NCBI GenBank assembly: GCA_030824535.1
Contig: JAVBXO010000085.1
Coordinates: forward strand, 1 to 36,857
DNA: 36,857 bases
Direction: 5' to 3'
Source of the DNA: Azonexus sp.
GTDB taxonomy: Bacteria > Pseudomonadota > Gammaproteobacteria > Burkholderiales > Rhodocyclaceae
Under the pieces are notes generated by a model. It was not told the DNA's origin, did no database searches, and was given only the letters and a program-made list of their open reading frames with translations. Of the stretch, positions 24,057-34,075 are shown piece by piece (position 1 is the first letter of the stretch; every line of letters begins with the position of its first letter). A program made the translations under genes and the position numbers.

Positions 24057-24114
24057 GTAGGTGCGAATTCATTCGCACGAAATACCTCGACCGTGCGAAT
24101 GAATTCGCACCTAC
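24057..24114. repeat. REPIN/BIME-like inverted pair of GTAG-type REP units
   Basis: GTAGGTGCGAATTCATTCGCACG / CGTGCGAATGAATTCGCACCTAC, 23-bp perfect arms, 12-nt spacer; each arm is itself palindromic. Confidence 0.85.
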
Positions 24115-28740: not shown

Positions 28741-28762
28741 AGGGTCAGAAAGACCTGACCCT
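28741..28762. repeat. Degenerate GACCTGACCC-type inverted repeat
   Basis: AGGGTCAGAAAGACCTGACCCT. Confidence 0.6.
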
Positions 28763-29049: not shown

Positions 29050-29232
29050 GGCATTCCACTTCCATAAAAAGTGCTTTCAGTTTTGGTGGCCTTGCGGGCA
29101 GAGATGATGCGGATAATATTGCCTGCTGCACGCTCGCAATGGCAGACAAGAAGCAGACGCCCTCCTGTGCTCATGCCCAACAACAGAAAACGCTCCTCGC
29201 TCGTCGAATGCTCTTCGCTGCGAGGGTCGGGG
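29044..29232 (-). pseudogene. brnT: 5'-truncated BrnT-family toxin
   Basis: Minus-strand frame PDPRSEEHSTSEERFLLLGMSTGGRLLLVCHCERAAGNIIRIISARKATKTESTFYGSGMP*; N-terminal half absent, homology ends at the palindromic repeat. Confidence 0.75.
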
Positions 29233-29314
29233 CTTGCATTACGACATTTAAATGTCGTAATGCAAGACCTGACCCCGATGTTCTAACTGCAAGACCTGAC
29301 CCCGATGTTCTAAC
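29233..29314. repeat. Palindrome/tandem element, locus 1
   Basis: 34-bp perfect palindrome CTTGCATTACGACATTTAAATGTCGTAATGCAAG (29233-29266); perfect 27-bp tandem TGCAAGACCTGACCCCGATGTTCTAAC at 29261-29287 and 29288-29314. Confidence 0.95.
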
Positions 29315-29338
29315 TGTCGAACCCGGGAGACCTGCCCC

Positions 29339-30612
29339 CAGGGTCTCCGCACTCGAATATCATAATGGTCTCAAGCCCAGAAAATGTGCGCGCAGATCAT
29401 CATCCCTGGCCGCTCTTTTCCGCTTTAGCCGCAGGCTGGATTTGACGCTGTCAGTCGTATCCATACGCAAGAGATTGAGGACGATTTTCTTGAGCAGGGA
29501 GAGATTTGCTGGCGCATTGTCCTTGCGAACGGTGCTGGCATCTTCTTTCATGGTGACATCGAGCACCCAATGAAGCTGGTTTTCGATTCCCCAGTGCGAA
29601 CGAACCGCTTCGGCTACTTCCGCCGGGGTGAGGTGGCGCGAGGCCATGTAGTAGCGCTGTTCCATGCTTGGCTTTTTGCCTTTGACTTGGCGCACCGAAT
29701 CAATGCGGGCGATCACCGCGCAACGCGGCCAATCGCTTTCCGACACGATACCGATGGCCGGCAGCACCGAACAACGCTGGACAACGGTGCGGCCATGCCC
29801 TTGCTCCGCTTGGCCAACATGGACAACCTGGTCCTGGCGATCAAGAAAGGCGTCTTGAATCGCCTTGTGCAGATTGGGTTGGTTGCCTTTAACCGCCAAC
29901 AAATAATCCGCTTCCTTGGCGATGATCTTCTCGGCAATGGCGCGCTGGCAGCCCATCGCATCAATACTGACAAGGAAACCTTTCAGATACAGGGCATCGA
30001 GCAGCTCGGGAATCGCCGTGATCTCGTTACTCTTCTTCGACACTTTTTCCTGACCAAGCACCAAGCCCAGCTTGGTTGCAAAAGCGCTGACCATGTGAAT
30101 AGCCGTTTCGCCTCCCTTGCCGGAACCGCGCACGGTTTTGCCGTCGACCGCAATCAGGCCGCTCAGATTCGGGATGAGGCTGCTCACCCACTGCGGGAAG
30201 CAATTTTCGAACTGCTTCGGATCGAGCAGGCGGAAAACCCGCAAAAAGGTATCTTCCGAAGGAACACCATTCTTGAGTACCAGAAACTGCCTCAGCCAAG
30301 TGGTGTGCGCACGCGACCACGCGGCTACGTCTTCAATCGTGTCGCAGTCAGAAAGCACCGCCGAGATTGCCATCACCAACAATTCCTGGAAGTCATGCCG
30401 AGTTCCATTGCTCGGCAGCCGGGGATCTTCCACATCGCTCAGCATCTCCATTAAAGCCATTCCTCTCGCCATCTTTTGCACTACCCAAAGAACAAGAGTA
30501 GACGGGATTTGTTGAATGTTTACAAGGTGGCACTGTAAGTCATTGATGTCGAACAGATTTTTGATGGCTCCTGTCACGAATCGGTTTATTCAATCCGAGT
30601 GCGGAAGCCCTG
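29339..30612 (-). mobile_element. Intact ISAs1-family insertion sequence with 10-bp TSD
   Basis: Terminal inverted repeats CAGGGTCTCCGCACTCG / CAGGGCTTCCGCACTCG; flanking direct repeat GACCTGCCCC at 29329-29338 and 30613-30622. Confidence 0.92.
29360..30577 (-). CDS. ISAs1-family transposase (start may be ATG 30472)
   Basis: MLSDVEDPRLPSNGTRHDFQELLVMAISAVLSDCDTIEDVAAW...GLIAVDGKTVRGS...AIHMVSAFATKLGLVLGQEKVSKKSNEITAIPELL...YLLAVKGNQPNLH. Confidence 0.93.
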   Translation of the reverse strand: MTGAIKNLFDINDLQCHLVNIQQIPSTLVLWVVQKMARGMALMEMLSDVEDPRLPSNGTRHDFQELLVMAISAVLSDCDTIEDVAAWSRAHTTWLRQFLVLKNGVPSEDTFLRVFRLLDPKQFENCFPQWVSSLIPNLSGLIAVDGKTVRGSGKGGETAIHMVSAFATKLGLVLGQEKVSKKSNEITAIPELLDALYLKGFLVSIDAMGCQRAIAEKIIAKEADYLLAVKGNQPNLHKAIQDAFLDRQDQVVHVGQAEQGHGRTVVQRCSVLPAIGIVSESDWPRCAVIARIDSVRQVKGKKPSMEQRYYMASRHLTPAEVAEAVRSHWGIENQLHWVLDVTMKEDASTVRKDNAPANLSLLKKIVLNLLRMDTTDSVKSSLRLKRKRAARDDDLRAHFLGLRPL

Positions 30613-30631
30613 GACCTGCCCCTGATGTTTG

Positions 30632-31240: not shown

Positions 31241-31267
31241 GTCAGATTAACACTGCTAGCACTGCTA

Positions 31268-31361
31268 GGGTCAGGTCTTGTATTACGACATTTAAATGTC
31301 GTAATACAAGACCTGACCCCAATGCGCTCCATAATACAAGACCTGACCCCAATGCGCTCCA
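31268..31361. repeat. Palindrome/tandem element, locus 2
   Basis: 52-bp perfect palindrome GGGTCAGGTCTTGTATTACGACATTTAAATGTCGTAATACAAGACCTGACCC (31268-31319); perfect 30-bp tandem TAATACAAGACCTGACCCCAATGCGCTCCA at 31302-31331 and 31332-31361. Confidence 0.97.
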
Positions 31362-31420
31362 TGCTGGCCCCCGGTGCTGTCCTGCTGCGGGTTTGTTTTT
31401 TACTGCGAACGAGAAATGTT

Positions 31421-31440
31421 GGATTACAAGACCTGACCCT
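31421..31440. repeat. Solo GACCTGACCC motif
   Basis: GGATTACAAGACCTGACCCT, about 12 bp past the stop of the cassette-type ORF at 31452. Confidence 0.75.
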
Positions 31441-31883: not shown

Positions 31884-31973
31884 GCCTAACGTTATAGGCA
31901 AGGGACTCTGCGCGGCGGTTTATCGCGCAGAGTCCAGCGACCGAAGGGAGCGGCCTTTACTGCGATGTTAGGC
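31884..31973 (-). other. Integron attC site (90 bp)
   Basis: Minus strand R'' GCCTAAC ... R' GTTAGGC (fits RYYYAAC/GTTRRRY); TAAAGGC/GCCTATA inner pairing; central GGACTCTGCGCG...CGCGCAGAGTCC stem. Confidence 0.88.
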
Positions 31974-32292: not shown

Positions 32293-32376
32293 GGTCAGGT
32301 CTTGTATTACGACATTTAAATGTCGTAATACAAGACCTGACCCCGAGGTTTTTACCCTGACCCCGAGGTTTTTACC
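32293..32376. repeat. Palindrome/tandem element, locus 3
   Basis: 50-bp perfect palindrome GGTCAGGTCTTGTATTACGACATTTAAATGTCGTAATACAAGACCTGACC (32293-32342); perfect 20-bp tandem CTGACCCCGAGGTTTTTACC at 32337-32356 and 32357-32376. Confidence 0.97.
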
Positions 32377-32399: not shown

Positions 32400-32476
32400 C
32401 TGGGAGCCGGATGGTGTAACGCTCCAAGTCCGGTTCTGCGAGGGCGGCCTGTCGCAAGGCGGGCCGCTACTCTCCC
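32400..32476 (+). ncRNA. Group II intron 3'-end relic (domain V/VI-like)
   Basis: GGAGCCGGATGGTGTAACGCTCCAAGTCCGGTTCTGCGAGGGCGGCC...GGGCCGCTACTCTCCC: GAGCCGGA/TCCGGTTC DV-type stem then a GC-rich DVI-like hairpin; no RT ORF nearby. Confidence 0.6.
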
Positions 32477-32947: not shown

Positions 32948-33008
32948 TTTTGCCGTATAAGTAGGCAGAGTCCCATACCCCTGAATAAGCTAGCAGCCTG
33001 TAACTCTA

Positions 33009-33860
33009 GGCTCTGTTGATGTTTTGCCGCAGCTCATCGCAGCCACAGCAAAGCCGCTGCAAATGTGAGGAAGCCCATGAAATGCATGGATTTTTTATCG
33101 TAGCGAGTGGCGATTCGGCGGAAATACTTGAGCGCTCCAAACATGCATTCGATGACATGACGTTCCTTGTAAAGCCACCAATCGCACTCTCTTTGTACCG
33201 TCCTGTTGGCCTTGGGCGGGATGACCGCGACAATGTCGCGCTCCTTGAGCCACGCCAGGAATTCGTCTGAATCGTAGGCCTTGTCAGCCAAGCAGGCTTG
33301 AGCTGAAATATTTGTCATGAGCGGAATCGCCTGCGTGATGTCAGCCTTTTGCCCGCCGGTCAGAATAAATTTGAGCGGCAAGCCCAAGCCATCGACCACC
33401 GCGTGAATCTTGCACCCAAACCCGCCTCGGGAGCGACCCAGGTCCTCATCGTCTGCCGAGCTCTGGGCCGCGCCCGCCGCACAGGCGTGGGCACGGATCA
33501 CCGTGCTATCGATAGAAGCACTTTGTAAATCAGCACTTTGAGCCAACCCTTCCAGCAGTTGCTTCCAGATGCCCAGCATTGACCACCGCGCGAATCGCTT
33601 GAAAACACTGTTCCAGTTGCCTCGGTCCGGAGGCAGGGAACGCCACTGCCCGCCAACCCGCAACACCCAGAGGACCGCCTCCACAAAGTGCCGACATCGA
33701 AATTCCTCGCCGGTATAGATTCTTCGGAAGGTCTTCAATTTCGCGAAAACCACAGACCACTCCGCATCGCTCAGTCTCGACTTGTCTACCACTTGGCTTT
33801 GGCTCATCTGGATCACGCAAAGCGGCAAAGTTTACCCGCCGGCAAAACATCAACAGAGCC
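33009..33860 (-). mobile_element. Intact IS5-family insertion sequence
   Basis: 21-bp perfect TIRs GGCTCTGTTGATGTTTTGCCG (33009-33029) / CGGCAAAACATCAACAGAGCC (33840-33860); TA on both sides. Confidence 0.93.
33034..33828 (-). CDS. IS5-family transposase, single ORF (start may be 33807)
   Basis: LSDAEWSVVFAKL, VLWVLRVGGQWRSLPPDRGNWNSVFKRFARW, ASIDSTVIRAHACAAGA, GRSRGGFGCKIHAVVDGLGLPLKFILTGGQ, RHVIECMFGALKYFRRIATRYDK. Confidence 0.94.
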   Translation of the reverse strand: MPLCVIQMSQSQVVDKSRLSDAEWSVVFAKLKTFRRIYTGEEFRCRHFVEAVLWVLRVGGQWRSLPPDRGNWNSVFKRFARWSMLGIWKQLLEGLAQSADLQSASIDSTVIRAHACAAGAAQSSADDEDLGRSRGGFGCKIHAVVDGLGLPLKFILTGGQKADITQAIPLMTNISAQACLADKAYDSDEFLAWLKERDIVAVIPPKANRTVQRECDWWLYKERHVIECMFGALKYFRRIATRYDKKSMHFMGFLTFAAALLWLR

Positions 33861-34075
33861 TAGCCACGACATGCATCCAGGAAGTTTCTGAATAGATCCA
33901 CGGGATAAACAACCTTCATACGCGGCAAGGTGCCAAAGAAATGACGATTGTGCCAGCAACTCCACCAGTTGTCATGAATTGACAGGATGTCAGAGTGACT
34001 TGTTACGTACCACGGAAAAAGAAACATCCCAATCCCTCCTATAGAAAGTTTGTCCGCAGAGTTCCGCTCTTCCAC
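33860..34075 (-). CDS. Hypothetical protein (71 aa) ending at the IS5 insertion point
   Basis: Low-GC ORF MEERNSADKLSIGGIGMFLFPWYVTSHSDILSIHDNWW...; its stop falls on the TA target duplication. Confidence 0.35.
   Translation of the reverse strand: MEERNSADKLSIGGIGMFLFPWYVTSHSDILSIHDNWWSCWHNRHFFGTLPRMKVVYPVDLFRNFLDACRG

Follow-up and report, generated by a model that had tools for sequence, protein, structure and literature searches.

How does a palindrome too short to encode a protein come to carry, on one side, an exact tandem copy of its own end together with the adjoining DNA? The question is raised by locus 2 of the stretch analysed here (the window), which comprises 36,857 nucleotides of contig JAVBXO010000085.1 from the Azonexus sp. 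assembly GCA_030824535.1, a draft genome that is 88% complete. A preliminary description of this DNA had reported a perfect 52-bp palindrome followed by an exactly duplicated 30-bp unit, and both are confirmed: the two 26-nt arms pair at 100% with no loop, and the unit TAATACAAGACCTGACCCCAATGCGCTCCA stands twice, head to tail, in copies that are 100% identical (Table 1). These palindromes are best explained as non-autonomous (MITE-like) elements whose two halves are TIRs belonging to the TIRYT branch of Y1/HUH tyrosine transposases. Taken as a whole, the explanation favoured by the sequence comparisons, and considered somewhat probable, is that the palindromes derive from TIRYT TIRs and that their duplicated tails are scars of a transposase acting at one element end.

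Table 1. Repeats and neighbouring features of the window (strand: +, - or. for none).
Feature	Position	Strand	Remarks
Locus 2 palindrome	31268..31319	.	Putative head-to-head fusion of two TIRYT-type TIRs; arm equals the TIR found 5' of TIRYT genes
Locus 2 unit, copy 1	31302..31331	+	Palindrome end plus 11-nt tail AATGCGCTCCA
Locus 2 unit, copy 2	31332..31361	+	Exact repeat of the 30-bp unit
Locus 2 left tail CACTGCTAG, two tandem copies	31251..31268	+	Read from the sequence
Locus 1 palindrome, 92%	29224..29275	.	Slightly degenerate
Locus 1, two copies of TGCAAGACCTGACCCCGATGTTCTAAC	29261..29314	+	27-bp unit, 29261-29287 and 29288-29314
Locus 3 perfect palindrome, 50 bp	32293..32342	.	
Locus 3, two copies of CCTGACCCCGAGGTTTTTAC	32336..32375	+	20-bp unit, 32336-32355 and 32356-32375; compatible with the most frequent break (after GGGGTCA), with microhomology of 2 nt
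Single TIR (GGGTCAGGTCTTGTAATCCAACATTT)	31414..31439	-	Half-element type as on contig C155
Short degenerate TIR pair (TAGGGTCAGAAAGACCTGACCC)	28741..28762	.	
DDE-transposase IS (PF13808 and PF01609)	29337..30613	-	Interrupts another degenerate TIR copy; 9-bp direct repeat ACCTGCCCC on either side
Inverted-repeat sequence, attC-like, 88 bp	31886..31973		
Group II intron 3' end (domain V region)	32402..32475		
23-bp perfect inverted repeat (GTAGGTGCGAATTCATTCGCACG...)	24057..24114		12-nt loop
IS5-like element (DUF4096/DDE)	33006..33863		24-bp perfect inverted repeats at its bounds

Palindromes and Duplicated Units in the Window

The same architecture had been claimed to recur at 29233 and 32293. 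Both loci are real, but their limits needed correction, since locus 1 begins further to the left and is imperfectly palindromic and locus 3 is shorter than 52 bp. The new part of the duplicated unit runs 11 nt beyond GACCTGACCCC at all three loci, and the other end of the unit falls at differing points of the arm, with a microhomology of 0-2 nt that makes the unit limits ambiguous to that extent. At locus 2 the left tail is duplicated as well, which the preliminary description had overlooked.

Copies in the Host Genome and Its Relatives

The palindrome core was found at seven genomic places when up to two mismatches were allowed, and the reversed pattern at none, so these matches are not due to chance. 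The three window loci had been regarded as one element family concentrated within about 3 kb. The family is indeed shared, but it spreads beyond this region, with further palindromes on contigs C4, C216, C284 and C308 and a half-element on C155; the TIR repeats are dispersed over the host genome as seven palindromes plus half-elements. The case for an element had been made to depend on further copies in the genome, and the palindromes on the four other contigs supply them. The C308 copy and the C155 half-element each have a tail duplication of their own, and the same scar is present in many bacterial phyla (see below), so it is not special to the window loci.

Among 100 relatives, 59 of them from the same genus, the full palindrome was confined to the host genome. 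The arm alone occurred in 17 of 369 genomes of the class and in 25 of 398 of the phylum, the reversed-pattern control giving zero throughout. Neither the whole palindrome nor long parts of it had a match in plasmids, named genomes or viral contigs. On C216 (L037:140-240), four tandem 13-bp units GGGGTCAGGTCYT adjoin the palindrome; these are TIR-only units with no tail.

The Arm as a TIR of the TIRYT Branch

TIRYT is a known but little-studied family of single-strand transposons. According to the accessible parts of the two papers concerned, it was named in 2013 with the TIR motif GGGGWSAS (Di Nocera et al. 2013, PMC3733652) and later equated, tentatively, with TnpAY1 subclass 2.1, a subclass that 14.9% of strains possess, that yielded no REPs, and whose link to TIRYT was said to need further analyses (Quentin et al. 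2018, PMC6006769). The arm (GGGGTCAGGTCTTG...) is such a TIR, and GGGGTCAG at the palindrome ends fits the motif. S. maltophilia reportedly possesses two families of TIR. In several genomes the arm lies directly 5' of an ORF starting with MARPLRIE or similar. With the Y1 protein of contig C155 as the query, 26 TIRYT genes were found in the fetched loci; a TIR lies 5' of 24 of them, at a distance of 45-256 nt, a proportion that is biased because the loci were fetched for holding the motif. An inverted TIR copy follows within 300 nt downstream in 10 of the 26. The Y1/RAYT genes flanked by the motif that had been proposed as a check do therefore exist in other genomes. The palindromic element is very probably derived from TIRYT TIRs, judging from these arrangements, and since its arm is a TIRYT TIR it is best read as two TIRs fused with no interior.

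A kinship to the REP-like elements mobilised by RAYT (Y1) transposases had been suggested. The relation to Y1 (RAYT-like) enzymes holds, but through a TIR of the TIRYT branch instead of a REP. The observation that the usual GTAG head is missing was correct: neither palindrome foot bears the GTAG by which GTAG REPs and REPINs are recognised, and GTAG-type REP identity was rejected on the absence of the GT[AG]G tetranucleotide there. Integron attC identity was rejected as well, the RYYYAAC...GTTRRRY boxes being absent from the palindromes, and so was IS200/IS605 identity, given that the ends are inverted repeats and that the proteins of C155 and G601 have no match to the IS200 model. Searches against known RNA families returned only meaningless miRNA-like matches below threshold.

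The window itself has no visible Y1 gene, as had been stated, but the genome does have one, on contig C155. This intact gene encodes the HUH (NHYH) and Y (YVVLNP) motifs as well as an HTH-like C-terminus that scores just below the cut-off. Its TIR lies about 0.8 kb upstream, with a toxin-antitoxin pair in between, and no clear right TIR is seen in this draft assembly. Homologues of the protein with 62-70% identity (L070, L097, L166, L170, L198 and L200) have a TIR 45-180 nt upstream. Genome G601 (L298) contains a complete TIR-ORF-TIR unit of about 900 bp whose protein has Y1_Tnp and HTH domains (HTH_23 above cut-off), as well as derivatives of about 100 bp whose ends are common to the complete unit. 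The proteins of C155 and G601 both match the REP-associated model, just below its cut-off. A TIRYT such as the intact enzyme of C155 probably acts in trans on the window palindromes.

Two further observations were made at these genes. On C155 (L035:1974-3780), two toxin-antitoxin-like gene pairs each lie 3' of a TIR GGGTCAGGTCTTGCAATCCAACATTT followed by TATAGT/TATAAT, as if the TIR were a promoter source. In G601:C5 (L265:270-340), several head-to-tail 9-bp units CAGGGGTCA adjoin the TIR of a complete TIRYT unit on its outer side, an extreme form of the scar that resembles a microsatellite.

A Boundary-Spanning Tandem with One Sharp Breakpoint

The comparison of element ends across genomes shows the tail duplication to be a recurrent, general scar of the TIRYT family in many bacterial phyla. 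A strict tandem spanning the boundary between element and flank was present at 16 of 95 unselected TIR ends (17%), against 71 of 23,924 random positions in related loci (0.3%). In 84,980 named genomes, the pattern GGGGTCA-N4-34-GGGGTCAGGTCTTG was found in at least 118 stretches, with about 4 expected by chance according to our own estimate. These belong to Proteobacteria, Nitrospirae, Elusimicrobia, Actinomycetota and others, cultured isolates included, and many of them are exact or near-exact tandem copies of unique flank plus the first TIR bases.

A break exactly after GGGGTCA fits 11 of the 16 unselected events at their inner end and 6 of the 9 that have zero microhomology, in a set that is free of position bias but small and partly drawn from the same genomes. 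In the pooled sets, 47 of 77 events fit this break and the remaining 30 have theirs at other points of the TIR; because the named-genome set contains only cases with sufficiently long outer copies, its breakpoints are skewed towards position 7 or more. The outer breakpoint lies 6-14 nt outside GGTCAGG, a range seen over many genomes that rules out a fixed 11-nt ruler. Within the host genome, the TCA^GG break fits two of the five duplicated loci, namely locus 3 and the C155 half-element, and locus 2 belongs to the minority, with its break at position 18-19, not 7. The defined copying event postulated in the preliminary description is thus upheld, with one sharp and one fuzzy breakpoint, and the fixed break base hints at the cut site of an enzyme. 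As a weak lead, 13 of the 47 fitting units start with CA (counted by eye; about 3 expected).

Long palindromes are known to stimulate replication slippage. Slippage or template switching at the hairpin, in which the fork halts at the palindrome and the new strand anneals again further upstream, would yield random small tandems with no dedicated enzyme. It would accommodate junctions with 0-2 nt of microhomology and occasional small insertions, as well as the breakpoints of loci 1 and 2 elsewhere in the arm. The fixed inner break of the unselected events speaks against it, as does the narrow outer range. In addition, scars occur at single TIRs adjoining TIRYT genes with no palindrome nearby, and most junctions have a microhomology of just 0-1 nt. 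Slippage is considered unlikely as the source of the scar.

No description of a scar with a fixed break after GGGGTCA was found, including in the accessible parts of the papers naming TIRYT (PMC3733652, PMC6006769). A search for the motif letters in paper texts gave no relevant paper among the matches listed.

What the Tail Is

The tails had been called locus-specific. They do differ among the three window loci, but each element end has its own inner 5-8 nt, which distant copies of that end have in common. End copies within a genome share positions -3 to -6, counted outside GGTCAGG, at 46-53% compared with 27-31% between genomes, and from position -9 outward the sharing is at background. In one group, AATGG is found at TTGCGAC ends and YCTGG at nearly all TTACGAC ends. 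The tail AAAAGTGG recurs at loci of G590 and CAAGAATGG at two loci of G583, and CTGCTA lies to the left of two window elements and of the C4 copy. A purine at position -8 was present in 93% of one sample and 72% of a second, and was not relied on. The element thus seems to take the inner tail along when it moves, but not the outermost few nucleotides; if the inner tail is carried in this way, the outer element boundary would be near the fuzzy breakpoint.

Two loci of genus g8 (L384 and L385) have the same short TIR element at unrelated sites and share the left tail GGATGCGG and, nearly, the outer right tail; within L385, the two tails on the right are not alike.

This sharing bears on the proposal that the duplicated unit is a target-site duplication from the insertion of the palindrome. 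Different tails at the three window loci would be expected from such an origin, but an inner tail common to distant copies of the same end argues against it. Moreover, the unit varies in length (20, 27 or 30 bp) and takes in element sequence, and both copies lie on one side of the element. Two interrupted repeats have no tail (L296 and the group II intron remnant at locus 3), a weak point against target-site duplication because neither case is clean, L296 being suggestive and the homology at locus 3 weak. A target-site duplication is, in our judgement, highly improbable. No constant-length target-site duplication was seen by eye at the copies inspected. No clean empty site was found elsewhere either: the accC locus of G601 is too diverged within its genus, the L307 flank is not conserved in its genus, and the alignment of relatives to the sequence beside locus 1 ends about 24 nt short of the element and so provides no junction.

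A Possible Mechanism of Cutting and Joining

Enzymes of the Y1/HUH type cleave single-stranded DNA and stay attached to the 5' end; the 3'-OH that they release is able to attack another 5'-phosphotyrosine. The scar could be produced by this chemistry if the transposase acted at one end of the element. The TIR strand (5'-tail-GGGGTCAGGTCTTG-3') would be cut after GGGGTCA (TCA^GG), and the liberated 3'-OH would be attached to another 5' end, whose position is loosely set at 6-14 nt beyond the element, on a further copy of this element end such as that of the sister strand. The product would be an extra [tail + GGGGTCA] outside the element, repetition of the event would give arrays, and the reciprocal product would be without tail and GGGGTCA. 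On contig C284 both arms end close to GGTCTTG, near the point expected for the reciprocal product, in a single case.

In vitro, TnpAREP carries out cleavage and joining of this kind at CT or CA; the site is C^T for the enzymes of E. coli and S. maltophilia, and CT and CA for a Marinomonas one (PMC8266576). By analogy, these sites would count against a cut at TCA^GG, as none of them follows TCA. Cutting and joining of this kind is put at slightly below an even chance as the mechanism of the scar. Three points are inferred from sequence: the identity of the sharp breakpoint with the catalytic cut, the enzymatic nature of strand joining, and the action of the C155 enzyme on the window copies. The more general proposal is plausible but tentative: TIRYTs may cleave their own TIR at GGGGTCA^GG and connect the resulting end to a loosely measured site outside, so that ends would grow outward by units of about 11-30 bp and the outer tail, trimmed or extended at each move, would record the history of the element.

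The same fixed inner breakpoint would result if excision, through a cut after GGGGTCA, left [tail + GGGGTCA] as a footprint and a full-length sister with the same tail re-inserted alongside. Tails partly carried by the element would agree with this route, and the C284 arms end as those of an element cut at TCA^GG would. Each scar would require two events at one place, and an array with at least three identical tails would take many of them, which makes footprint and re-insertion a rather unlikely origin, slightly more so than slippage. Under the cut-and-join mechanism, the fixed breakpoint makes a concrete prediction of the TIRYT cut site, and the arrays would be an activity marker that can be counted in sequence databases; no report of a TIRYT cut site or of TIRYT mobility was found. 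If true, outward growth would be a sequence-readable by-product of single-strand transposition across many phyla.

Comparison with Known Systems

The closest likeness is to the TIRtrons/TIRYT, or TnpAY1 subclass 2.1, which in the accessible parts of the descriptions (PMC3733652, PMC6006769) share the GGGGWSAS motif, a Y1 HUH transposase with an HTH-type C-terminus, and TIR families occurring as singletons, dimers and clusters. The present elements differ in their fully fused palindromic TIR dimers and in the boundary-spanning micro-duplication with its fixed break after GGGGTCA. The TIRYT family itself was already known, and what appears to be new here are the fused TIR palindromes and the boundary scar.

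GTAG REPs, REPINs and BIMEs with their RAYT (TnpAREP) are likewise short palindromic repeats that are non-autonomous and associated with a Y1 transposase, but the elements described here have no GTAG foot, their arms are long and TIR-like, and the flank is duplicated with one fixed breakpoint. The IS200/IS605 elements (IS608, ISDra2) share the Y1 HUH chemistry and a short sequence just outside the element that is tied to each end; they have same-strand subterminal hairpins, whereas here the ends are inverted repeats, the transposase is of the TnpAREP class with an HTH, and there is no TnpB. Like MITEs, the palindromes are short and non-coding and have TIRs common to an autonomous element; in contrast to MITEs, no classical target-site duplication was seen, and the interior may be wholly absent.

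Neighbourhood of the Loci

Beyond the two insertion sequences of Table 1, several neighbouring features were recorded. No viral contigs carrying the neighbouring IS transposase were found. The 88-bp inverted-repeat sequence has GCCTAAC...GTTAGGC ends and is present many times over in dozens of genomes from the genus. It looks like an integron attC site, and the region is therefore probably a relic cassette array. The group II intron 3' end, just below the Rfam threshold, adjoins this attC-like context and locus 3, and is possibly the remnant of an attC-targeting intron. Finally, the 23-bp inverted repeat is possibly a GTAG-type REP, in which case a second repeat system may exist in the window.
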